A stretch of 11,481 bases of DNA from Phycisphaerae bacterium (GTDB lineage: Bacteria; Planctomycetota; Phycisphaerae; Phycisphaerales; UBA1924): contig JAEUIX010000006.1 in assembly GCA_016794945.1 (NCBI GenBank), forward strand, positions 1-11,481. Direction: 5' to 3'. Below, one piece after another: positions 2,475 through 11,481 of this stretch. The notes under the pieces were generated by a model. That model ran no database searches. It was not told where the DNA came from and saw only the letters and a list, made by a program, of their open reading frames with translations. The translations under genes were made by a program, and so were the position numbers. Each line of letters starts with the position of its first letter. Within the stretch, counting starts at the first letter, position 1.

Positions 2475-2828
2475 TCACTCGGCGTCGTTGCGGACGCGCT
2501 TGCGGCCCGCGCCCGGCCCGTCGCCCGCGTCGACCCGAACGAACCGCCCGCGAAGGCCGCGACGGCCGCTGTAGCTCTGGGCGCTGAAGAAACCCAGGTC
2601 GATGAGGATCGCCAGGATGAAGACCACCAGCCACAGGCCGCTGACGCTCCGCTGGTTCTCGTTCATGGCGCCGGCGTACGCGAGCGTGGTGCAGGGCATG
2701 AACAGGAAGCCCATGAAGGGCCAGAAGTTGGTGGAGAAGGCGCGTCCGAGGTAGTCGCTGAACAGGAACACCAGGAACAGCGCAACCCTGGGGAAGAAGA
2801 ACGCGATGGCTCCGACGAGGCAGGGCAT
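2475..2828 (-). CDS. Hypothetical 117-aa membrane protein downstream of pgpA
   Basis: I do not recognise this family. The ATG at 2828 is preceded by a good Shine-Dalgarno AAGGGGG with an 8-nt spacer, and lies 20 bp after the pgpA stop on the same strand, so the two are probably one operon. The protein has three likely membrane helices (about 5-23, 34-54 and 64-82) and a basic, Gly/Arg-rich cytoplasmic tail (88-117). The first two helices are rich in Phe, a composition expected of real membrane protein rather than an antisense shadow. The frame is open much further upstream, but there it runs antisense-like through pgpA and is Arg/Pro/Gly-rich, so a longer start is unlikely. It converges on comM with a 6-bp gap and no room for a terminator. 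A role near phospholipid synthesis is only guessed from the neighbour. Confidence 0.6.
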   Translation of the reverse strand: MPCLVGAIAFFFPRVALFLVFLFSDYLGRAFSTNFWPFMGFLFMPCTTLAYAGAMNENQRSVSGLWLVVFILAILIDLGFFSAQSYSGRRGLRGRFVRVDAGDGPGAGRKRVRNDAE

Positions 2829-2848
2829 GAGTCGGTCCCCCTTGGCGG

Positions 2849-3349
2849 TTACAGCAGCAACCACGCGGCCGCGGCGCACGGCACGCCCGCGTACACGCCC
2901 GCGATCAGGTCGTCGATGAGGATGCCGGCGCCGGCGTGCAGGGCTTGCAAGCGGCGAGCCGGGGGCGGCTTGAGGATGTCCGCCAGCCGGAAGAGCACGA
3001 ACGCGGCGCCGATCCAGATCGCCGCTCTCTGCGGCGAGGCGAAGCAGGCGTGCGGGAGGCACAGAAGGGCCAGGGCCATGCCGGCGGTTTCGTCGGCGAC
3101 GACCTGGCTCGGGTCCTTCCTGCGGAAATGCCGTTCCGCGGCGTTTCCACACGCCAGGCAGGCGGCGCTGAACAGCGCGACCGTGGCCGTCAGCAGGGCG
3201 TACCAGAGGAGCCCGTCGGAGGCGGGGCCCCTGCCGAGCAGCACCAGCAGCATGGCCAGCCCGGCCGGAGGGAGGGATCCCCACGTGCCGGGCGCCGGGC
3301 GCAGCAGGCCGAGTCCGAACGTCGTGATGGACCAGAGCGAGGCCGGCAT
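2849..3349 (-). CDS. pgpA: Phosphatidylglycerophosphatase A
   Basis: PgpA is an inner-membrane enzyme that removes the phosphate from phosphatidylglycerophosphate to give phosphatidylglycerol, the step after PgsA. The 166-aa product is close to the usual 160-170 aa. Conserved blocks are LLRPAPGTWGSL (15-26), KDPSQVVADETAG (78-90) and FVLFRLADILKPPPAR (117-132), followed by HAGAGILIDDLIAGVYAG (138-155), with the acidic residues expected to bind Mg2+. Hydrophobic stretches at about 28-40, 47-67 and 112-122 fit membrane association. The ATG at 3349 is chosen because PgpA homology begins within ten residues of it. The frame continues upstream to 3739, but that part lies antisense to the PqqD-like gene and is low-complexity Arg/Pro. 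No Shine-Dalgarno precedes the start; instead a TACGCT box ends 6 nt before it, suggesting a leaderless transcript. Confidence 0.93.
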   Translation of the reverse strand: MPASLWSITTFGLGLLRPAPGTWGSLPPAGLAMLLVLLGRGPASDGLLWYALLTATVALFSAACLACGNAAERHFRRKDPSQVVADETAGMALALLCLPHACFASPQRAAIWIGAAFVLFRLADILKPPPARRLQALHAGAGILIDDLIAGVYAGVPCAAAAWLLL

Positions 3350-3355
3350 GGCGGG

Positions 3356-3361
3356 AGCGTA
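3356..3361 (-). promoter_or_regulatory. Candidate -10 box of pgpA (leaderless geometry)
   Basis: Read on the minus strand, TACGCT is followed by six bases and then the pgpA ATG. This is the same geometry as in front of comM and pgsA. I see no convincing -35 element at 16-18 bp spacing, so the call rests on the box position and on the lack of a Shine-Dalgarno. Confidence 0.35.
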
Positions 3362-3383
3362 CCCAGCCGCCGGGGTTGCGGCG

Positions 3384-3392
3384 TGGTAGCAT
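3384..3392 (+). promoter_or_regulatory. Candidate extended -10 of the PqqD-like operon
   Basis: TGGTAGCAT fits an extended -10 (TGn followed by a TANNNT hexamer, 3387-3392). It would start transcription near 3399 and leave a short leader of about 37 nt carrying the Shine-Dalgarno for the gene at 3436. No matching -35 is visible. The site lies between this operon and the divergent pgpA. Confidence 0.3.
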
Positions 3393-3435
3393 GCCCCCGC
3401 GTCCGCGCACGTGGGAGATGCGAGGGGATTCCCGG

Positions 3436-3852
3436 ATGACCATGCACCCGACTTCCGATCGACTGATCCTGCGGCCAGAGGTCGTTTCAACCGTGCTTCA
3501 TGACGGGGCGGTGCTGCTGGACCTGCGCAGCAAGTACTTCTATTCCGCCAACGCCAGCGCGTGGGCGATCGTGCAGCGGTTCGAAGGGGGCGCGACGCCG
3601 GACGAGGTTCGGCGTGCGTGCGAGCTGCTGGGCGCCGGCGCGGTTGATACGCCGGCCATCGAAGCTGTGATCCAGCAGCTGATCGCCGACGACCTCGTGG
3701 AGGTCGCCGACGGATCCGCCGCGTCGGCGGGCGACGCACCGGCGATCGTCGGCGGCGTCGGTTGGGTGTTGCCCGCGCTGGTGCGACACCAGGAGCCGCT
3801 GCAGCGGATCATGGTCAGCGCGTTCGATCCCGGCATCCCCCTGGCCGAGTGA
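3436..3852 (+). CDS. PqqD-like (RRE-type) protein with a leader-like C-terminal tail
   Basis: PqqD-family proteins are small winged-helix domains (RiPP recognition elements) that bind a peptide leader and present it to modifying enzymes. In this 138-aa protein the domain spans about 8-92: VVSTVLHDGAVLLDLRSKYF (about 16-35) gives the beta-strand part, SANASAWAIVQRFEGG (37-52) the central helix, and EAVIQQLIADDLVEV (76-90) the final helix. After a short Ala/Gly linker there is a conserved-looking tail (about 108-138) containing WVLPALVRHQEPL. This resembles the YxxPxL recognition motif of lasso-peptide leaders, with Trp for Tyr. The ATG at 3436 has Shine-Dalgarno GAGGGGA at a 7-nt spacing; an in-frame ATG at 3418 is a less likely alternative. 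The stop TGA overlaps the next gene's GTG. Identification as PqqD-like is by pattern; the meaning of the tail is inference. Confidence 0.85.
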   Translation: MTMHPTSDRLILRPEVVSTVLHDGAVLLDLRSKYFYSANASAWAIVQRFEGGATPDEVRRACELLGAGAVDTPAIEAVIQQLIADDLVEVADGSAASAGDAPAIVGGVGWVLPALVRHQEPLQRIMVSAFDPGIPLAE

Positions 3853-4922
3853 CCATGCCCGCCGCCGAGAGTCCAACAGGCGTTGCGTCCGGGCGTGCCG
3901 GGAGGACCGCTTCGCGGCACGCGTGGGGGCCGGTCCGGCTCGACGCCGAGTGGCCTGACCCGGCGCTGGCCGCGGCGCTGTCGCGTCACTGCAACCAGTT
4001 CGACGCGCCGTGGACTTCTGGTCCGGGCGAGCCGTGCTGCTGGCGGCTGTGCGTGGGGGAGGCCGAGCCCGGGGGGGCGGTCGGCGGCACGGCGGTCGGC
4101 GGGTTCCTCACGACGGTGCACCTGAGCGTCGATCGCGCCGCCGGCGGGGCGATCGAGAGCCGCGGGCGTCGGGGGAGTCTTCTGCGGATCGACGAGTCGG
4201 CGCGCACCGCCCTGCTGTGGGTGCCGGCGTGGGCGCGGCGTCCGGAGGTGATCGAGGAAGCCGAGCAGCAGCTGACCTTGCTGTCGTCGCGGGCGTGGGC
4301 GCTGGCGGGGTGGACGCCGGTGCACGGCGCGACGCTAGTGGCGCCGGGGGCCGACCGCTGCGCGGTGATCTGCGCGCCGTCGGGCTCGGGCAAGACGACG
4401 CTGACGTTCAGCCTGCTGCGCCGGGGCTGGCGCACGCTGGGCGACGACAAGCTCCTGGCGCGTCGCGTGCCGGGGGGCGTCGAGGCGCGGTCGCTGGCCC
4501 GTCGCCTGCACCTGGACCCGGCCGCGTCGCGATGGCTGGCGGAGGCCGGCGACATCCGCCGGTTCCCGGCCTACTCGCCCTGGACCGACAAGCGGCACGT
4601 GGATCTGGAGGCCGTGTGGCCCGGCCGGCTGCTCAGCCGCGCGATGATCGCGCTGGTGGTGCGCATCCGGCGCGAGCCGGGAACGGCGGGCCTGCGGTGG
4701 GCGCCGCTGGACCAGGCGGGGAGGTTCGACACGGCGGCGCGGCAGGTGGCGATTCCCGGCGAGGCGGGGGCGGCCCGGCCGCTGGTGGGCGTCGTCGGCG
4801 CGATCGCGTCGGTGGCCCAGGGCATCGAACTGGTGGTCGGGGACGACGCGTTCGACGATTCGTCGGCGCTCGACGCGCTGAGCCGGGCGCTGGGCGCGAC
4901 GCTCGCGGGGGGGACCGCGTGA
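3849..4922 (+). CDS. HPr kinase/phosphorylase-like ATPase (HprK-related)
   Basis: HprK-type proteins are P-loop kinases that phosphorylate a serine; relatives in paeninodin-type lasso clusters modify the precursor peptide. Numbering from the ATG at 3855, the HprK signature comes in order: GWTPVHGATLV with the conserved HxG (His157), Walker A APSGSGKTT (174-182), RGW followed by GDDK (197-200), corresponding to the acidic pair of HprK, then TDKRHVDL (244-251). The N-terminal 140 residues are not catalytic HprK and have a Cys-rich patch (CCWRLC, 61-66). Length is about 355 aa, typical of HprK-related proteins outside the Firmicutes. The GTG at 3849 overlaps the upstream stop as GTGA, the junction style used by most of this operon; ATG 3855 is two codons in and equally possible. 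No HPr gene is seen nearby, so a classical sugar-repression role is unlikely. Confidence 0.85.
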   Translation: MTMPAAESPTGVASGRAGRTASRHAWGPVRLDAEWPDPALAAALSRHCNQFDAPWTSGPGEPCCWRLCVGEAEPGGAVGGTAVGGFLTTVHLSVDRAAGGAIESRGRRGSLLRIDESARTALLWVPAWARRPEVIEEAEQQLTLLSSRAWALAGWTPVHGATLVAPGADRCAVICAPSGSGKTTLTFSLLRRGWRTLGDDKLLARRVPGGVEARSLARRLHLDPAASRWLAEAGDIRRFPAYSPWTDKRHVDLEAVWPGRLLSRAMIALVVRIRREPGTAGLRWAPLDQAGRFDTAARQVAIPGEAGAARPLVGVVGAIASVAQGIELVVGDDAFDDSSALDALSRALGATLAGGTA

Positions 4923-5824
4923 GCGACGCGCCTCTGGTGAGCGTCGTGATCCCCGCGCTCAACGCCGAGCGCACGATCGGCGACACGCTCGCGGCGCTGC
5001 GCGCCCAGGCCGGCGTGCCCGGGCCGGTGGAGATCATCGTGGCGGACAACGGGTCTTCCGACGGCACCGTCGGGATCGCCCGCGCCGCGGGCGCCACGGT
5101 GATCCACGCCCACGAGCGCGGACCCTCGGCCGCGAGGAACGCGGGCATCGGCGCGGCGCGCGGGCGGGTCATCGCGCACACCGACAGCGACACCGTGCCG
5201 AGCCGGCGCTGGCTGGGCGCGCTGGTGAGCGCGCTGGACCGCGCCGGTCGCGCGGTGGCCACCGGCCCGATCGTGGGCTGGCCGGCTTCGACGGCGGCCG
5301 AGCGATTCGTGGAGGCCCGGGGCGCGTACACACGGAGCGTGAGCGTCGATCACCCGGTGCACCCGTACGCGACGGGCATGAACCTCGCGATCCGCGCCGA
5401 CGACCTGCGCGACGCGGGAGGGTGGGACCCCTGGATGGGCAGCGGCGAGGACATCGACCTGTGCATCCGCCTGCGTCGGCGCGGGGTCGGGATCGCCTGG
5501 TCGCAGGGTGCGAGCCTGTTCCACCGGCACCGATCCGACGACGCTGCGCTCTGGAGGCAGGCCCGGTGGTACGGATCGGGCTACGCGCAATTGCACCTGA
5601 AGCACCCGGATCTTCTGACGTGGCGGCTGTGGCAGACGCTGTGGGTGGGCGCCGGGGTGGGGTGCCTGTTCGCCGCGGCGCCCGTGGCGGCGGCGGGTCG
5701 GGCGCTGGGTCTGCTGAGCCCGGCGCGGGCGGAGTTCGAGCGGTACTACCGGGCGTGGAACGCGCACTACTGGGGTGCGTTCTTCCTCCGGCTGGCGTCG
5801 GGCGAAGGGCCCCGGGGCACGTGA
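4919..5824 (+). CDS. Family 2 glycosyltransferase with C-terminal membrane segment
   Basis: A GT-A-fold inverting glycosyltransferase that would transfer a sugar from a nucleotide-sugar donor. In the 301-aa product the nucleotide-binding part begins at once with VSVVIPALNAERTI (7-20), then VADNGSSDGT (41-50), ARNAGIGAARG (72-82), the DxD metal motif in HTDSD (Asp89/Asp91), and GEDIDLCIRLR (176-186), which holds the acidic catalytic ED. A hydrophobic stretch at about 239-265 may be a membrane helix or amphipathic anchor, so the enzyme probably works at the inner face of the cytoplasmic membrane. The GTG start at 4919 overlaps the preceding stop (GTGA); the frame is open far upstream but only as an Arg/Gly-rich shadow. 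It is closely similar to the next gene, indicating a tandem duplication. Donor and acceptor are unknown. Confidence 0.93.
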   Translation: MSDAPLVSVVIPALNAERTIGDTLAALRAQAGVPGPVEIIVADNGSSDGTVGIARAAGATVIHAHERGPSAARNAGIGAARGRVIAHTDSDTVPSRRWLGALVSALDRAGRAVATGPIVGWPASTAAERFVEARGAYTRSVSVDHPVHPYATGMNLAIRADDLRDAGGWDPWMGSGEDIDLCIRLRRRGVGIAWSQGASLFHRHRSDDAALWRQARWYGSGYAQLHLKHPDLLTWRLWQTLWVGAGVGCLFAAAPVAAAGRALGLLSPARAEFERYYRAWNAHYWGAFFLRLASGEGPRGT

Positions 5825-6702
5825 TGCGCGTGACGGTCGTCATCCCGGCGTACAACGCCGTCGCCACCGTGGCCGAGGCGGTCCGCGCGGTCGTGCAGCA
5901 GGTGGGCGTGCCGGCGGATCAGCGCGAGTGCATCGTGGCATCCGACGCTTCGAGCGATGGCACCGACGGGGCCGCCCGGGCCGCCGGGGCGACGGTCGTG
6001 CGCCTGCCCTTGAACCGCGGCTGCGGCGCGGCCCGCAACGCCGGGATCCGCGCGGCCCGGGGCCGCTGGATCGCGTTCACGGACGCCGACTGCGTGCCGT
6101 CGCGCCGCTGGCTGGCCGAGCTGCTGTCCAGCGCCGAGCGCGCGGATCGGCGGACGCTCGGTGTCGCGGGGCGCACGGTCGGGCTGGAATCGGCCACGCC
6201 GGCCGCGCGGTTCATGGACCTGATCGGCGCGCTGGACGCCGAGAATTACGTGCGGCACGCCGTGTCGCCCTGGGCTCCGTCGTGCAACCTGGCGTACCGA
6301 CGGGAGGATCTGCTGGCCGTCGGCGGGTTCGACCCGTCGATGCGTTCCTACGAGACGTGCGAGCTTCACCGGCGGCTCGTCCGCGCGTTCGGGGGCGGTA
6401 TCGAGCTGGCGCCCCGGGCGGTGGTGATGCACCGGCACCGGGCGACCTGGGCCGCGCTGTGGCGGCAGCAGCTGTCGTACGGGCGGGGCCACGGCGAGTT
6501 CCTGCGCCGGCACTCGGAGGTCTGGCCCTGGTCGCGCCGGCAGGAACTGGGCGCGTGGGCGCGCACGCTGGGCCTGGCGGTGCGGGCCGCGGCGTCGGCG
6601 CGCGGCGACGAGGGACTGGTTCGGCGTGGACTGCTGGTCAAGCACCTGGCGCAGCGCATCGGGTTCGCGCAGGCGTACTTCGGCGATGGGGGGCGGCCGT
6701 GA
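5824..6702 (+). CDS. Family 2 glycosyltransferase, tandem paralogue
   Basis: A second GT-A glycosyltransferase of 292 aa. It shows VTVVIPAYNAVATV (3-16), VASDASSDGT (38-47), CGAARNAGIRAARGR (67-81), the DxD motif in FTDADCVPSRRW (85-96), and HRHR-ALWRQ-YGRGHGEF near the C-terminus. Shared blocks with the upstream enzyme (SSDGT, ARAAGATV, AARNAGI, VPSRRWL, HRHR, AALWRQ) show they are paralogues. The acidic motif that reads GEDIDL in the first copy reads YETCEL (176-181) here, so the position normally held by Asp is Thr and the general base may differ. There is no C-terminal membrane helix, unlike the first copy. The ATG at 5824 overlaps the upstream TGA (TGATG); a GTG at 5821 is an alternative one codon earlier. 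The two enzymes may add consecutive sugars. Confidence 0.93.
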   Translation: MRVTVVIPAYNAVATVAEAVRAVVQQVGVPADQRECIVASDASSDGTDGAARAAGATVVRLPLNRGCGAARNAGIRAARGRWIAFTDADCVPSRRWLAELLSSAERADRRTLGVAGRTVGLESATPAARFMDLIGALDAENYVRHAVSPWAPSCNLAYRREDLLAVGGFDPSMRSYETCELHRRLVRAFGGGIELAPRAVVMHRHRATWAALWRQQLSYGRGHGEFLRRHSEVWPWSRRQELGAWARTLGLAVRAAASARGDEGLVRRGLLVKHLAQRIGFAQAYFGDGGRP

Positions 6703-7271
6703 CCGAGGCGCGTCCGGTCGGATCATCACCGTTGCCGGCGATGACCGGTTCGGGCCTGCCGCTGTGGGCGGCGGTGGGACACTTCGTGGCCCGGGCGCCG
6801 GCGCGCCTGGCCCGCACGGCGCTGCCGGTGTTCCTGGAGCGGCTGGCGCGCCAGCCCGGGCGCACGGCCGACGAGGCCAGGGTGCACCGCCTGACGCGGC
6901 GCTGGCTGCGCGTGCCGGGTCTGCGCTCACGCGACACGTGCTACGTGCGGTCGCTGGTGCTCTTCCGATTCCTCGATCCGCGGGGCGGGGACCTGCGGCT
7001 GCACCTGGGCGTGGACGAACCGGAGAGCCCGGGCGAGCGGCTTCACGGTCACGCGTGGGTCAGCCTGGACGGCCGGCCGCTGAACCCGCCGGGATCGCTC
7101 GGCCGGGGTCGCCTGCGCGAGATCTACTGGTTCAGCTCCGTGACCGGCGGCGCTTCAGGAGTTGACGCAGCGCTTGCCGCCGCCATGATCCGGCGCGGCG
7201 ACGGGGCCCTTGAGCCCGGGAGACCAGGTCCGGCGGCATCAACCAGCGCGCCGCGGCCCGGGGCCAGCTGA
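6699..7271 (+). CDS. Transglutaminase-like protein of the lasso-peptide B2 type
   Basis: B2-type proteins (PF13471) are transglutaminase-fold cysteine proteases; in lasso-peptide pathways they cut the leader from a precursor delivered by a PqqD-like partner. The 190-aa product has the expected catalytic order: Cys81 in RDTCYVRSLVLFRFL, His118 in HGHAWVSL and Asp124 in LDGRPLNPPG, with LRLHLGV (99-105) between. The first 60 residues are not conserved by eye. The GTG at 6699 overlaps the stop of the glycosyltransferase (GTGA); the ATG at 6741 would be a shorter alternative. After EIYWFSSVTGG (141-151) the tail is low-complexity (Ala/Pro/Gly), and its 140 bp lie on top of the 3' end of the opposite-strand nucleotidyltransferase gene. 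It is the last gene of the operon that starts with the PqqD-like gene, its likely partner. Confidence 0.85.
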   Translation: MTEARPVGSSPLPAMTGSGLPLWAAVGHFVARAPARLARTALPVFLERLARQPGRTADEARVHRLTRRWLRVPGLRSRDTCYVRSLVLFRFLDPRGGDLRLHLGVDEPESPGERLHGHAWVSLDGRPLNPPGSLGRGRLREIYWFSSVTGGASGVDAALAAAMIRRGDGALEPGRPGPAASTSAPRPGAS

Positions 7272-8139
7272 TTTCGAGCTGGGCAAGCAGCCGCTCGCAC
7301 GCGTGGCAGCCAAGGGTTCGACCGGCCAGATCGAGGCCCCAGCCGACGCACATGCCCGCGCCTGTGCGGTCGATCGCGACCAGAAGCTCGGAGGCGTCGA
7401 CCGGCCCGGCCGCGCCGCGCGCCGCCAGCGCGACGTCGCACAGGTGCTGGAGCTTGTCGAAGCCGTGGCTGGTCGCGCCGTGGATGCAGGCGATCAGGAG
7501 CAGGCCCGCCGCGGTGGGCCGCACGCCGCCGCCGGGGCCCCGCTCCAGAGGGACGTCGCGGAACTCGGCCGAGACGCCCCGGCGGAGCGTGGGGGAGTTC
7601 ACCAGGTTGGTGTGCAGCTCGACTTCCGCGCCGGGGACCGTCGGGTGCTCGAAGGCGCGCTGCCCGTAGCCGGACCCGTACTTCATGGCGTCGATTCGCT
7701 CGCGGTAGCCGTCGGCGGAAAGCACCTCGGCGGCGCGCGCTTCGTCGGCAACGGGGACGAGGATGTCCATGTCACCGAAGGTGCGCTGGGCCGGCGCGGC
7801 GTACAGCCGGGCGGCGAATTCCGCACCCTTGAGGATCACGGCCGGAACGCCGGCGCGGTCGAGGGCGCGGACCACGCGCCGGGACTCGGCGGTCAGGAAC
7901 ATGATCATCGCGCTGCGTTCGACCAGGCGACGGTTGGCCGATTGCAGCGCTGCGCCCGGCTCGACGCCGGGCCAGGCGGCGCGCAGGTTGGCCAGGAAAA
8001 CCGGCAGCACGCCGTGCAGTTCGGCCTGCGGCAGCAGGCGGAGCAGTTCTTCATTCCCGGGCGGGTCTCTGGGCAAGCCGGGACCGGGTCCCGCGGGGTC
8101 CGCCAGCAGCGCGATGAGGCGTTCTCCGGTCCCGGTCAT
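7132..8139 (-). CDS. Nucleotidyltransferase-fold protein (PF14907 type)
   Basis: A 335-aa member of the uncharacterised nucleotidyltransferase family often found beside HprK-related kinases and B2-type proteins. The polymerase-beta-like core is visible: GVPAVILKGAEFAARLY (97-113), TFGDMDILV (120-128) with the two metal-binding Asp (123 and 125), and VELHTNL (173-179) supplying the third acidic residue. A second conserved part, IACIHGATSHGFDKLQHLCDVAL (216-238), is typical of the family's C-terminal half. The tail is very basic (RRRAGSW...LLKRRRSRS). The ATG at 8139 overlaps the pgsA stop as ATGA, so it is translationally coupled to pgsA although by function it should belong to the opposite-strand cassette. 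Its last 140 bp overlap the B2-type gene tail to tail. Whether it transfers a nucleotide, and to what, is unknown. Confidence 0.85.
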   Translation of the reverse strand: MTGTGERLIALLADPAGPGPGLPRDPPGNEELLRLLPQAELHGVLPVFLANLRAAWPGVEPGAALQSANRRLVERSAMIMFLTAESRRVVRALDRAGVPAVILKGAEFAARLYAAPAQRTFGDMDILVPVADEARAAEVLSADGYRERIDAMKYGSGYGQRAFEHPTVPGAEVELHTNLVNSPTLRRGVSAEFRDVPLERGPGGGVRPTAAGLLLIACIHGATSHGFDKLQHLCDVALAARGAAGPVDASELLVAIDRTGAGMCVGWGLDLAGRTLGCHACERLLAQLEISWPRAAARWLMPPDLVSRAQGPRRRAGSWRRQALRQLLKRRRSRS

Positions 8140-8882
8140 GCGCGTTGCCGACCCCGATTCCGGGCCAGTTCGTGGAAGCAGCGCACCACGTACGGAACAC
8201 CCGACAGCACGGTCACCACGAGCGTGGTCCACACGATCAGGTCGATCATCACGCGGCCCGTGTCGCCCTTCCAGAATTCACCGCCGGGGTTCGGCTGCAC
8301 CGGCGCCAGCGCGATGATCACCAGGATGGCGGGGATCGCCGCCGACTGGAGGATCATCTTGCCCTTGCCCCACCAGTCGCTGGAGAACTTCACGCCCTGC
8401 CCCTCCAGCACGGCGCGGATGCTGGTGATCAGAAGCTCGCGTGCGACCATCAGCACGGCCATCCACGGGTAGACGCCCGAGACCTGCAGACCGTGCCCGC
8501 TGATGCGGGCGGGGTGGCCTTCGGGGAATCGCCACCAGAAATCGGGCCCGGCAAGGAACACCAGCGCCCCGAGCACCAGAATCTTGTCCGCGAACGGGTC
8601 CATGATCCGGCCGAAGGTCGATTCGACCTTCCAGCGGCGGGCCAGGTAACCGTCCAGCGCGTCGGTCGCCACGGCGATGCCGAACAACGCCGCCGCGCCC
8701 AGCAGCATCCAGTCGACCTTCAACGAACTGGCGGCTGAATCCTCGAACCGCCAGAGCGTCAGGACCGCGAAGAAGACTCCGGCGAGCACGACACGGCTGG
8801 CCGTGAGCCAGTTGGGCAGCGCCCGCTGGATCGCCGACGGTGCCGGGAGCACAAGGATGGCCGGTCGTGGCACCGACGTCAT
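8136..8882 (-). CDS. pgsA: CDP-diacylglycerol--glycerol-3-phosphate 3-phosphatidyltransferase
   Basis: PgsA joins glycerol-3-phosphate to CDP-diacylglycerol to make phosphatidylglycerophosphate at the cytoplasmic membrane. The CDP-alcohol phosphotransferase signature is complete: DALDGYLARR (74-83) through GRIMDPFADK (91-100), with Asp74, Asp77, Gly78, Ala81, Arg82, Gly91, Asp95 and Asp99 all present. The N-terminal LPNWLTASRVVL (22-33) is the usual start of PgsA and favours it over phosphatidylserine synthase. Hydrophobic segments lie at about 31-44, 58-72, 101-114, 146-158, 188-204 and 219-236. At 248 aa it is longer than the 180-200 aa norm, because of a loop after the signature (about 115-140) and another before the last helix (204-217). 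The ATG at 8882 leaves a 20-residue lead-in; the frame is open to 8972 but without homology. There is no Shine-Dalgarno, and a TACGAT box ends 6 nt upstream. Confidence 0.93.
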   Translation of the reverse strand: MTSVPRPAILVLPAPSAIQRALPNWLTASRVVLAGVFFAVLTLWRFEDSAASSLKVDWMLLGAAALFGIAVATDALDGYLARRWKVESTFGRIMDPFADKILVLGALVFLAGPDFWWRFPEGHPARISGHGLQVSGVYPWMAVLMVARELLITSIRAVLEGQGVKFSSDWWGKGKMILQSAAIPAILVIIALAPVQPNPGGEFWKGDTGRVMIDLIVWTTLVVTVLSGVPYVVRCFHELARNRGRQRA

Positions 8883-8888
8883 GCACCC

Positions 8889-8894
8889 ATCGTA
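8889..8894 (-). promoter_or_regulatory. Candidate -10 box of pgsA (leaderless geometry)
   Basis: Read on the minus strand, TACGAT is followed by six bases and the pgsA ATG. It matches four of six positions of the -10 consensus. No -35 is clear in the GC-rich sequence behind it. Geometry is identical to the comM and pgpA boxes. Confidence 0.4.
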
Positions 8895-8964
8895 CCGGAC
8901 CATGGCCGGCGGCCGGGGCGCGGACGGGGAGGCCGATCCCGCCGGTGCGGCCGGCCGGGGTTTG

Positions 8965-8993
8965 TTGAACACGGGGGGTCCCGCCTCTATCCT
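8965..8993 (+). promoter_or_regulatory. Candidate promoter of the nuoJKL unit
   Basis: TTGAAC (8965-8970) and TATCCT (8988-8993) are separated by 17 bp, the ideal spacing for a housekeeping sigma factor, with four matches to consensus in each hexamer. Transcription would begin near 9000, giving a leader of about 65 nt with a Shine-Dalgarno AGGAAAGG at 9051-9058. The promoter sits between the divergent pgsA and nuoJ. Confidence 0.5.
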
Positions 8994-9009
8994 CTCGCCC
9001 TTGCTGGGT

Positions 9010-9035
9010 CCGGGCCCGGGGCCGGTCGAAACCGG
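9010..9035 (+). other. Inverted repeats in the nuoJ leader
   Basis: A 10-bp palindrome CCGGGCCCGG (9010-9019) is followed by a small hairpin, CCGGT (9022-9026) and ACCGG (9031-9035) around a CGAA loop. Both would lie near the 5' end of the nuoJ message. They may fold in the RNA or be a product of the high GC content; there is no U-run, so this is not an intrinsic terminator. Confidence 0.25.
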
Positions 9036-9064
9036 AGCGCGCCCGTTGACAGGAAAGGCCCGCC

Positions 9065-10054
9065 TTGGAGCACGTGATCAGCCCGATTCTGCTCTACGGC
9101 GCGTGCGCGGTCGGCGCGCTGGGCGTGCTGGTGGCCTTGCCGCGTGAGCGGCTGACGCCCGCCATCTTCGGCGCCATCATGCTCGCCGGGGCGTTCGGGG
9201 CGCTGGTGCTCGGGCTGGGCTTCGCCGCACCCGATCAGGTTCCGAACTTCCATTTCTATGTGTTCTCGCTGATCGCGCTGCTGGCCTCGCTGCGGGTGAT
9301 CACGCACCCGCGCCCGATCTACTCGGCGCTCTACTTCATCCTCACGATCCTCGCGGCGTGCGGGTTGTACCTGATTCTGTCGGCCGAGTTCCTGGCGTTC
9401 GCGCTGATCATCGTGTACGCCGGCGCGATCCTCATCACGTACCTGTTCGTGATCATGCTGGCCACCGAAGGGCCGACGGCCGACCAGGTTGAAGCCCTGA
9501 ATGAGTACGACCGGGTGGCGCGCGAGCCGGTGCTGGCGGCGGGGGCCGGGTTCATCGTGCTGGCGGCGCTGACCACGCTGCTGGTCGGTGGTTCTGGTGC
9601 GATCAAGGCGGACCCGCGGCTGATGCCCGGCGACACGCGCCTGGCGGTCATGCCCCAGAAGGTCAACGACAGCCTCCGCGCGGCCGGCCTGATCCAGGGC
9701 GACGAGGGCGTGATCTACATCGAGAAGGAGCGCCGCTGGGGCATCACCCCCCGGCGCGACGGCAACGGCTCGCTGTACGTCGCTGACAAGATGGGGCTGG
9801 GCGCCTCGACGCGGCTGATCCCGCAGGCTCAATGGCCGGCGGACCTGCGCTTGAGCAACACCGAGGGCGTCGCCTTCAGCCTGATCGACGGCCATCCCGG
9901 CGCGATCGAGATCGCCGGCGTGATCCTGCTGATGGCGATGCTCGGGGCGGTGGTGCTGGCCCGGAAGAAAGTGGAACTGGACGAAGCGGCCAAGTCGCAG
10001 GCGCAACGGCACGCCAAGCTGGACGAGCCCGACGTCGCGGGGGTGACCCGGTGA
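9065..10054 (+). CDS. nuoJ: NADH-quinone oxidoreductase subunit J, extended form
   Basis: NuoJ is a membrane-arm subunit of respiratory complex I, next to the quinone-coupling region. The canonical protein starts at about residue 63 here (FHFYVFSLIALLASLRVITH) and includes the conserved bulged helix EFLAFALIIVYAGAILITYL (108-127), another helix (157-175) and the final helix AIEIAGVILLMAMLGAVVLAR (280-300). At 329 aa it is far longer than the 165-200 aa norm. The excess comes from an N-terminal piece of about 60 aa with two extra membrane helices (6-24 and 31-52) and a soluble insertion of about 85 aa (178-263) before the last helix. The TTG at 9065 is chosen for its Shine-Dalgarno AGGAAAGG at a 6-nt spacing; a GTG at 9074 is possible but too far from it. 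It is first in its unit, and the stop overlaps nuoK (GTGA). Confidence 0.93.
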   Translation: MEHVISPILLYGACAVGALGVLVALPRERLTPAIFGAIMLAGAFGALVLGLGFAAPDQVPNFHFYVFSLIALLASLRVITHPRPIYSALYFILTILAACGLYLILSAEFLAFALIIVYAGAILITYLFVIMLATEGPTADQVEALNEYDRVAREPVLAAGAGFIVLAALTTLLVGGSGAIKADPRLMPGDTRLAVMPQKVNDSLRAAGLIQGDEGVIYIEKERRWGITPRRDGNGSLYVADKMGLGASTRLIPQAQWPADLRLSNTEGVAFSLIDGHPGAIEIAGVILLMAMLGAVVLARKKVELDEAAKSQAQRHAKLDEPDVAGVTR

Positions 10055-10413
10055 TCGCCGGCACGCTTCCATCGCTGCTGGCCCAGGGGCCGATCCCCGC
10101 CGACATGGGCGGGGTGACGCTGGCGCACTACCTGGTGGTGTCGGCGGTCATGTTCGTGCTGGGGCTGGTCGGCTTTATGGTCCGGCGCAACCTCATCATC
10201 ATGTTCCTGTGCACCGAGCTGATGTTCCAGGCCGCGGGCATCGCCCTCATCGCCTTCAGCCGGTTCCACATGAACCACACCGGGCAGACGTTCGTGATCT
10301 TCGTGCTGACGGTCGCGGCCGCGGAGGCGGCGATGGCCTTGGCGCTGGTCGTGCTGCTGTTCAGAAGGAAGGAAACCCTGGACGGCGCCGCGTGGCGCGA
10401 GCTCAAGGGCTGA
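10051..10413 (+). CDS. nuoK: NADH-quinone oxidoreductase subunit K
   Basis: NuoK is a three-helix subunit of the complex I membrane arm, homologous to MrpC, and carries buried glutamates needed for proton coupling. The helices are about 25-43, 48-70 and 80-103. Both key glutamates are present: Glu56 in CTELMFQAAG and Glu92 in AAAEAAMALAL. The N-terminal core reads AHYLVVSAVMFVLGLVGFMVRRNLI, and the C-terminus ends in a usual short charged tail. With the GTG at 10051, which overlaps the nuoJ stop, the protein is 120 aa with about 20 residues before the first helix, against about 100 aa in the family. The ATG at 10105 would give 102 aa, closer to the norm, but it has no well-placed Shine-Dalgarno, so the start remains open between the two. 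Confidence 0.95.
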   Translation: MIAGTLPSLLAQGPIPADMGGVTLAHYLVVSAVMFVLGLVGFMVRRNLIIMFLCTELMFQAAGIALIAFSRFHMNHTGQTFVIFVLTVAAAEAAMALALVVLLFRRKETLDGAAWRELKG

Positions 10414-10417
10414 TGCC

Positions 10418-11481
10418 GTGACCCACCTGCTTTCCCATCTCGCGTCCGTGGCGCTCGCCGCCAGCCCGCCCGCCGAGGCCGCCGCGCGTGCGGCGGCTCC
10501 GGTGCTGGGCAAGGTGGTCGAGGCGCCGTGGACGGCGGTGCTGATCCCGGGTCTGCCGCTGCTGGCGGCGGTGCTGGTGGCGCTGTGCGCCGCCGGCCGG
10601 GTCAAGAGCAAGCTCCCGGCGTGGATCACGGTGGGCTGCCTGGCCGGCGCGTTCGCCGCCGCGGTGCACGCGTACCTGGCGGTGGTGAATCAGCCCGGCC
10701 TGGCGCAGGGCGTCCGGGTGCTCGAGTGGATCCACCTGTCGTGGGGCGACAAGCCGGGGCAATCGTTCGCGGCGGATTTCGGGCTGTACCTCGACAGCCT
10801 GACGATGCTGTGGATGCTCTTCGTCACGGGGCTGGCGACGCTGATCGCGCTGTACGCCAGCGAGTACATGTCCCACGACCTGGGGGCGGGGTACAACCGC
10901 TTCTATTTCGCCTTCGCCCTGTTCGTCTTCAGCATGTCGTGCCTGGTGATGGGCGACAACCTGATCCTGCTCTACCTGGGGTGGGAGGGCGTGGGCCTGT
11001 GCTCCTACCTGCTCATCGGGTACTTCTACAAGAAGCCTTCGGCCGTCGCGGCGGCCAAGAAGGCGTTCATCATGAACCGCATCGGCGACCTGGGCCTGGC
11101 GCTGGGCATCATGCTCACGTTCGTTCAGTTCGGCTCGGTGCGGTACGCGGAGATCTTCGAGGCCGCCAAGCCGTACATCACGCTCGCGGGCGAGGGGCGG
11201 ATCGGTGAGATTCCGCTGCTGATCCAGCTGATCCCCGTGCTGTTCACGGTCGGGGCGTTCGGCAAGAGCGCCCAGCTTCCGCTGTACGTCTGGCTGCCCG
11301 ACGCGATGGAGGGCCCGACGCCCGTCAGCGCGCTGATCCACGCGGCGACCATGGTGACCGCCGGCGTGTACCTAGTCGCCCGCTTCCTGCCGCTGTACCA
11401 GTGCAGCACGTGGGCGCTGCCGATCGTCGCCTGGACCGGCGCGGGCACCGCGCTGCTGGCGGCCACCATCGGCATGGCCCA
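10418..11481 (+). CDS. nuoL: NADH-quinone oxidoreductase subunit L (3'-truncated by window edge)
   Basis: NuoL is the distal antiporter-like subunit of complex I, with the long lateral helix in its missing C-terminal part. The frame is open from the GTG at 10418 to the window end, 354 codons. Family blocks are plain: FGLYLDSLTMLWMLFVTG, then LYLGWEGVGLCSYLLIG with the conserved Glu, AAAKKAFIMNRIGDLG, and GKSAQLPLYVWLPDAMEGPTPVSALIHAATMVTAGVYLVAR with the pump-channel Lys. The start has Shine-Dalgarno AAGGG (10405-10409) at an 8-nt spacing and lies 4 bp after nuoK. About 40 residues precede the first family helix (normally near residue 5); they begin HLLSHLASVALAAS, which resembles a signal peptide or extra helix, followed by an Ala-rich linker. 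The ATG at 10413 is not the start: it reads Met-Pro-stop. Confidence 0.96.
   Translation, partial: MTHLLSHLASVALAASPPAEAAARAAAPVLGKVVEAPWTAVLIPGLPLLAAVLVALCAAGRVKSKLPAWITVGCLAGAFAAAVHAYLAVVNQPGLAQGVRVLEWIHLSWGDKPGQSFAADFGLYLDSLTMLWMLFVTGLATLIALYASEYMSHDLGAGYNRFYFAFALFVFSMSCLVMGDNLILLYLGWEGVGLCSYLLIGYFYKKPSAVAAAKKAFIMNRIGDLGLALGIMLTFVQFGSVRYAEIFEAAKPYITLAGEGRIGEIPLLIQLIPVLFTVGAFGKSAQLPLYVWLPDAMEGPTPVSALIHAATMVTAGVYLVARFLPLYQCSTWALPIVAWTGAGTALLAATIGMA

Follow-up and report, generated by a model that had tools for sequence, protein, structure and literature searches.

A set of peptide-modifying enzymes that comes without a ring-closing cyclase and without a separate precursor gene raises the question of what these enzymes act upon. 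Such a set lies at positions 3436..8139 of an 11,481-nucleotide stretch of DNA (hereafter, the window) from a Phycisphaerae bacterium (contig JAEUIX010000006.1 of assembly GCA_016794945.1). A preliminary description, made from the letters alone, had seen there a PqqD-like protein, an HprK-like kinase, two glycosyltransferases, a B2-type protease and a nucleotidyltransferase, and had proposed that the two glycosyltransferases take the place of a missing cyclase and a missing free precursor. The six genes stand where they had been placed, and profile and alignment matches agree with the families named. The substrate is another matter: the PqqD protein itself probably carries the "missing" precursor as its C-terminus. 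On balance, we think it probable that the cassette makes a small, linear, cyclase-less phospho-glycopeptide, belonging to the ribosomally synthesised and post-translationally modified peptides (RiPPs), the precursor of which is fused in cis to its own RiPP recognition element (RRE).

A candidate precursor at the end of the PqqD-like protein

The first gene of the cassette (3436..3852, + strand) encodes a PqqD-like protein of 138 residues, which exceeds the length of a lone RRE and appears to combine an RRE, a leader and a candidate core in a single chain. In an AlphaFold2 model, the RRE (residues 13-92; 3472..3711, + strand) is confident, with a predicted local distance difference test (pLDDT) score mostly >90; the linker is less certain (about 70), a strand at residues 115-118 is again confident (mean of 92 for the block 111-120), and the C-terminal end is loose, with blocks 121-138 at 55-58. 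The top PDB match of the model by Foldseek, and the sole one below 0.001, was the lasso B1 protein TbiB1 bound to the TbiA leader (E 8.7e-4). The linker holds a W110-x-x-P113-x-L115 motif (3763..3780, + strand), which reaches into the predicted strand and is followed by the conserved C-terminal tail EPLQRIMVSAFDPGIPLAE (residues 120-138; 3793..3849, + strand), with the consensus (R)IMVSAFDP(G/S)xPLAE running to the stop codon.

Among 118 homologues of this protein, which are related and so are not 118 independent cases, the W and P of the motif are fixed throughout and the residue at +5, counted from W, is always L, I or V. All 118 likewise have Ile or Val at +15 (V in 15) and Ser at +18, with His at +8 in 90, and all keep S128, F130, D131, P132 and P135 and end on Glu. 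When the 35 residues before the tail were shuffled, WxxPx[LIV] stood at its place in a mean of 0.18 of the 118 proteins (maximum 2), and elsewhere in the same proteins the motif occurs three times. This linker motif is the strongest evidence for the putative hidden precursor.

The tail was also followed in loci gathered without regard to it. Nine were fetched through a B2 alignment (A1) alone, searched in genome contigs, and the tail stands at the PqqD C-terminus in 8/8 of them, the ninth (L006, 3.4 kb) being cut off. In all 15 loci with a readable PqqD gene, window included, the stretch S-A-F-D-P, the Pro three residues ahead of the terminal Glu and that Glu itself are unchanged over codons most of which vary; six of these 15 were found with a PqqD profile that included the tail. 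Leu takes position +15 in L004 and L109, and the terminus reads LVE in L104 and L105. Mean pairwise identity, calculated for 9 of the 15 loci, is 0.48 in the RRE, 0.24 in the linker and 0.76 in the tail. As a side observation, the invariant Ser codon (3817-3819 in the window) is AGC in 15/15 loci, and the neighbouring variable Ser, present in 11/15, is coded AGC, AGT, TCC or TCG.

Parallels with published leaders and a proposed pathway

Most discrete lasso RREs recognise the consensus [Y/W]xxPx[L/V/I/A/F/Y] (PMC13381572), and a YxxP motif appears likewise in PMC12710340. Two precursors allow the spacing to be compared. In BsfA, Y(-17)xxPxL spans -17 to -12, Ile(-2) corresponds to +15 and Ser3 to +19; a kinase aided by B1 phosphorylates Ser3, and B2 takes off the leader (PMC10368454). 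In the linear polyphosphorylated peptides (LPP) published in 2026, the precursor motif YxxPxVLxHQxIxFETxxS has its Ser at +18, and LppK, an HprK-like kinase, phosphorylates Ser3 of LppA (PMC13381572). The PqqD protein of the window aligns with the LPP motif without a gap over the whole span between W and S, and the His at +8 agrees as well. As for the sugar, in pseudomycoidin the phosphate requires PsmK, and a hexose on that same Ser requires PsmN (PMC9266682).

By these analogies, the chain would run from the RRE through a linker of variable sequence and a leader of the lasso/LPP type (W110xxPxL to I125) to a core of 12-13 residues, (V)SAFDP(G/S)xPLAE. The leader would dock onto its own RRE or that of a neighbouring molecule and so bring the core within reach of the enzymes. 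The HprK-like kinase would then phosphorylate Ser128 (3817..3819, + strand; Ser in 118/118 proteins and 15/15 loci), and the nucleotidyltransferase, together with the two GT2 family glycosyltransferases, would put a sugar onto the phospho-Ser, making Ser128 the predicted site of both modifications. B2 would cleave near I125, after M126 by the spacing of BsfA or after I125 by that of LPP, freeing the modified peptide of 12-13 residues; with I125 taken as leader position -2, the predicted core is residues 127-138 (3814..3849, + strand). In some hosts, export may be the task of an adjoining transporter, as an ABC-2 type transporter lies upstream of the PqqD gene in L008, L106 and L108, and a flippase follows the nucleotidyltransferase gene in L009.

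The enzymes of the cassette

The five + strand genes follow one another in series, with a gap of 2 bp at the first junction and overlaps of 4, 1 and 4 bp at the others. The HprK-like kinase (3855..4922, + strand; 355 amino acids) is recognised by a fold match and by H157, K180, D197 and D198, invariant in the 26 rows of alignment A4, which correspond to the His-Lys-Asp-Asp (HKDD) kinase motif of PMC9266682. It scored 25.3 bits with the TIGR04352 (HPr-rel-A) kinase model, far from the cut-off of 200.

Both glycosyltransferases belong to the GT2 family by PF00535. The first, here GTa (4919..5824, + strand; 99.6 bits), has DSD and GED motifs and keeps GED in 9/9 loci, and the second, GTb (5824..6702, + strand; 96.4 bits), has a DAD motif. 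The top NCBIfam match of both was MftF, at 150.9 and 149.8 bits against a cut-off of 280, and the N-terminus of one MftF, considered as a PqqD-like bridge between RRE and glycosyltransferase, gave no clear PqqD match (hhalign probability of 8%). That GTb might be a dead subunit was considered and is less likely, because the L108 cassette keeps GTb although it has no GTa.

The B2 cysteine leader-peptidase homologue (6699..7271, + strand) scored above the cut-off of NF033537, and alignments show Cys81 and His118 conserved; a complete triad was not claimed, as the alignment settles the Cys and His alone. A sequence search of the PDB gave no credible relative of B2 or of the kinase. The NTP_transf_5 nucleotidyltransferase (7132..8139, - strand; PF14907, 113 bits) is convergent with B2 and overlaps it by 140 bp (7132-7271). 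Together, RRE, B2, HKDD kinase and NTP_transf_5 uphold the kinship to paeninodin-type machinery that had been suggested for this locus.

Neither cyclase nor separate precursor

The asparagine synthetase-like cyclase that would make an ordinary lasso cluster was sought with PF00733 in eight cassette genomes. No match was found on the cassette contig in 7/8, and the remaining genome (G006) had a weak one (22.7 bits) about 53 kb off, so that none of the eight has a match near the cassette; the contigs searched are pieces of metagenome-assembled genomes (MAGs), and the window itself spans 11.5 kb. Asparagine synthetase is present by PF00733 in 6/8 of these genomes, never near the cassette. The absence of a lasso cyclase noted in the preliminary description thus holds beyond the window, and an ordinary lasso cluster with its cyclase just outside, which would have overturned that description, is rejected on the strength of this search.

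The supposed lack of a free precursor stands only in part. Within 2600-9100 of the window, no open reading frame (ORF) of 25-150 amino acids bears the leader motif, and the gap before the PqqD gene is 83 bp, but a leader and a candidate core end the PqqD protein. The idea that the two glycosyltransferases fill the place of a precursor gives way to the same observation. Other pathway genes were also sought. The archaeal-type SpI peptidase (TIGR02228) reached its cut-off in 0/8 cassette genomes, with weak matches in six of them and none on the cassette contig; neither SpI nor an MsbA-like transporter was found among the window genes scanned, and no radical S-adenosylmethionine (SAM) gene among the 14 genes of the window.

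Conservation and distribution of the cassette

The order PqqD, HprK-like kinase, GTa, GTb, B2 is kept in all eight uncut loci fetched through B2 alone, and the cut-off L006 shows the end of GTa, GTb and B2. PF14907 was found in 8/8 genomes searched (that of L006 left out), one match in each adjoining B2 by its coordinates. Of six further loci from Eremiobacterota, L104 and L106 hold PqqD, kinase, both glycosyltransferases, B2 and nucleotidyltransferase; L108 (G873) has the same genes without GTa; and L105, L107 and L109 are truncated where their contigs end. All six families therefore recur together across loci and are not scattered, which answers the check for co-occurrence that had been proposed. 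The pairwise distances of the six proteins correlate (Pearson r 0.71 to 0.94; 9 of 15 loci), as for a unit that may travel together.

The nucleotidyltransferase gene and B2 converge in the window and in L001-L003; in the remaining loci, they run in the same direction. The 3'-to-3' coding overlap of the two genes measures 140 bp in the window and L001, 98 in L002 and 65 in L003. In an alignment, the C-terminus of B2 is extended in the four convergent loci and not in the codirectional ones. In L003, GTb and B2 share one stop-free frame (9089-10480; 463 amino acids), which may be a genuine fusion or an artefact of assembly.

The annotated hosts are Phycisphaeraceae, Desulfobacteraceae, Verrucomicrobiia, Eremiobacteria, Eremiobacterota and Chromatiales, with L004-L006 recorded plainly as "bacterium". 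The genomes of L004 and L005, which are close relatives, fell into the phylum of the Eremiobacteria genome. Since all loci are MAGs, misbinning of single contigs is possible. With the kinase profile, full-length matches were found in 1/392 genomes of the phylum of L001 and 1/387 of that of L003. With the PqqD profile, they were found in 10/149 genomes of the Eremiobacteria phylum (four of the ten already known), 1/398 of the phylum of the Chromatiales record, 1/247 of that of the Desulfobacteraceae record and 1/266 of the class of L003, each single match being the starting genome. Weaker, partial matches came from 66, 27, 2, 11, 4 and 6 further genomes across the six profile searches, which scored few candidates per genome (five with the kinase profile) and may have missed some. 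The parts are commoner in protein databases, with 118 PqqD and 88 B2 proteins, each count taking in the one from the window. The cassette is a rare but conserved unit. Among 72,556 plasmid records there was no B2 match; plasmid carriage was discarded as well for PqqD, the one record matched being a Streptomyces lasso PqqD that covers residues 5-89 of the query, without the tail.

The window cassette is flanked by genes for YdjC, ComM (Mg chelatase), a small unnamed protein, PgpA, a CDP-alcohol phosphatidyltransferase and Nuo proteins. L001, from a Phycisphaeraceae bacterium, is syntenic with the window, its ComM being 94% and its NuoJKL 95-98% identical. A promoter and terminator scan gave one promoter-like and one terminator-like site, both intragenic, which were not used.

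Tailless controls and a sister family

Eleven regions (L110-L120) around distant kinase or B2 matches were collected in the phylum of L001. Kinase, PqqD and B2 occur together in six of them (L110-L113, L118 and L120), and in all six the PqqD protein stops after the RRE; these clusters are a negative control for the tail. The three examined further (L111, L112 and L118) each have a radical SAM gene. Possibly the six belong to a further RiPP set, as yet undescribed, that stands close to the SynChlorMet models.

A different tail, D[ML]..L...DP[IV]H[ED]V...GWP, ends 8 of 24 weaker PqqD matches examined (L101/L103, L140, L141, L142, L143, L144, L146 and L148). In six of the eight, all except L143 and L144, the Asp of DP is preceded, at a distance of exactly 18 residues, by [YWF]xxPx[LVF]; a Phe at the first position falls outside the published [Y/W] leader consensus. 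By profile or Pfam, the neighbours include an HprK-like kinase and a GT2 enzyme in L140-L144 and in L103, where the kinase is weaker, and NTP_transf_5 is found in L141, L142 and L143 where scanned. In L141 (4528-6312, - strand), the HprK-like and GT2 domains are fused in a protein of 595 amino acids. The sister family speaks for a wider use of the in-cis design.

Weighing the alternatives

Several observations count against a phospho-glycopeptide precursor fused to its RRE. The 118 proteins were gathered by shared words that were possibly drawn from the tail. The conservation of the tail resembles that of enzyme active sites, its 11-mer reaching 0.856 as compared with 0.894 for the DxD site of GTb; a claim that the tail is more conserved than the rest of the cassette was dropped, as it ranks with those sites. 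The motif itself varies, with Met at +5 in L007, and in 10/10 loci GTb has Y[ED][TA][CP][ED]LH where GT2 enzymes usually have an ED motif. The model systems give some pause as well. In BsfA, phosphorylation and cleavage withstood single or double Ala changes at Y(-17), P(-14) and L(-12), and cleavage was only partly hindered when all three were changed; I(-2)V and I(-2)L almost abolished it (PMC10368454), and it is these residues, the V of 15/118 homologues and the L of L004 and L109, that the cassette family has at the equivalent position. The Ser is at +18 in the cassette proteins and at +19 in BsfA, and deletion of lppN, for an RRE-bound NTP transferase, changed no detectable product in the host (PMC13381572). 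In the sister tail, Asp occupies +18 and no Ser is invariant, and B2 was matched in none of its eight loci, two of which span only 3.3 kb; a tail of this kind therefore need not be a Ser substrate that B2 cleaves.

This last point keeps alive the idea of a docking tail, a short linear motif through which PqqD would bind the kinase, a glycosyltransferase or B2 and organise the complex, the true substrate being another peptide or protein encoded elsewhere. Conservation at the level of active sites is by itself no proof of a product, and a docking tail, loose in the model as this one is, could look alike; the sister family, too, sets another tail beside similar kinase and GT2 genes. We nevertheless regard a docking tail as unlikely, for it accounts neither for an RRE-binding leader motif at the known leader-Ile and leader-Ser spacing directly before the tail nor for the invariant Glu (118/118) that closes the chain. 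Less likely again, and in our view decidedly improbable, is a glycoprotein scaffold, in which the tail would stay on, Ser128 of PqqD would carry a phospho-glycan later moved to the surface, and B2 would act as a transferase or hydrolase. The two GT2 enzymes would suit such a role, as would the polysaccharide-type neighbours in some loci (the flippase of L009, a GT1-type enzyme in L004 and the ABC transporter of L008, L106 and L108), but B2 is by family one of the lasso leader peptidases, with both Cys81 and His118 retained, and the scanned flanking genes of the window, L002 and L003 are no polysaccharide genes. Scarcely credible is a paeninodin-like cluster that lost its cyclase, precursor and function: the enzyme families are those of paeninodin-type clusters and no cyclase was found, but ORFs in the same order in distant genomes, tail amino acids kept over changing codons and protein distances that rise together already contradict it.

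Placement among known systems

If the cassette does make a fused, phosphorylated precursor, its closest counterparts are of two kinds. With the LPP system (lpp) of Paenibacillus alginolyticus, it has in common a discrete RRE, an HprK-like kinase, an NTP transferase and the lack of a cyclase, and the LPP leader, with [Y/W]xxPx[V/L], His at +8 and Ser at +18, is matched by the cassette PqqD, W standing for Y (PMC13381572). However, the LPP precursor is separate and has a highly variable C-terminus, whereas that of the cassette would be fused to the RRE and have an almost invariant core; and LPP has an SpI peptidase and an MsbA-like pump (PMC13381572), whereas the cassette has a B2 peptidase and two GT2 genes and, upstream of PqqD in L008, L106 and L108, an ABC-2 type transporter that may or may not be MsbA-like. 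Lasso clusters of the paeninodin, pseudomycoidin and BsfA type share B1, B2, the HKDD kinase and the nucleotidyltransferase with it (PMC9266682, PMC10368454, PMC5067487), and the leader spacing and Ile(-2) of BsfA are alike (PMC10368454). The paeninodin-type leader pattern, YxxPxL with Thr, Ile or Val at -2, is also that of the cassette proteins, with W for Y and Ile or Val at the second place. The cassette nucleotidyltransferase is in the same Pfam family as that named for the lasso and LPP pathways. Unlike the paeninodin type, the cassette has no cyclase, no separate precursor gene and two glycosyltransferases. The Asp or Glu that closes a lasso ring sits at core position 7-9; the predicted core, whichever candidate site is cleaved, has its Asp at position 5 or 6, its Glu at 12 or 13 and neither residue at 7-9. 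We class the cassette as a variant of the phosphorylated RiPPs of the LPP and paeninodin kind and as a member of neither, as the defining features of both were tested and were not found.

Other likenesses are more distant. In mycofactocin, the glycosyltransferase MftF acts in a PqqD-family RiPP pathway and resembles GTa and GTb, although both fall below the MftF cut-off and the window has no radical SAM gene. Borosins have a core peptide fused to the C-terminus of a biosynthetic protein, an N-methyltransferase, whereas the fusion partner in the cassette is an RRE. The HPr-rel-A, HprK-rel-B and SynChlorMet cassettes of NCBIfam set an HprK-like kinase beside a PqqD-like protein, by their model names; the window kinase lies far below these models and, again, no radical SAM gene accompanies it. 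The phospeptin of "Ca. Eudoremicrobiaceae", a group that presumably belongs to Eremiobacterota, was considered as a relative. It was set aside, as the case for it rests on EmbA/EmbM and "hprk" is absent from the part of PMC9259500 consulted. In the parts of the open-licence literature covered, there was no description of the cassette or of an RRE fused to its precursor; fusions of an RRE to a glycosyltransferase are mentioned in PMC7470986 and PMC12710340.

Significance

Mining for RiPPs seeks a small precursor gene beside the enzymes, so a cassette of this kind could be passed over. According to PMC12710340, 21% of PF05402 proteins exceed the size of a discrete RRE without another annotated domain, and thus further precursors may be hidden there. 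We suggest, tentatively, that the cassette could represent a RiPP class of its own, where a single protein would serve as recognition element, leader and core, and a nearly identical phospho-glycopeptide of 12-13 residues would be made in five phyla, going by the annotated hosts, invariant like a cofactor or a shared signal and not diversified like an antibiotic; on this view, the DPIHEV...GWP sister family, with its HprK-like kinase, GT2 and nucleotidyltransferase genes, would share the in-cis design. An invariant core across distant bacteria raises the question of a conserved target or a cofactor role, and the cassette offers a compact system for learning how NTP_transf_5 enzymes act on a phosphorylated peptide, a question left by the work on LPP (PMC13381572).

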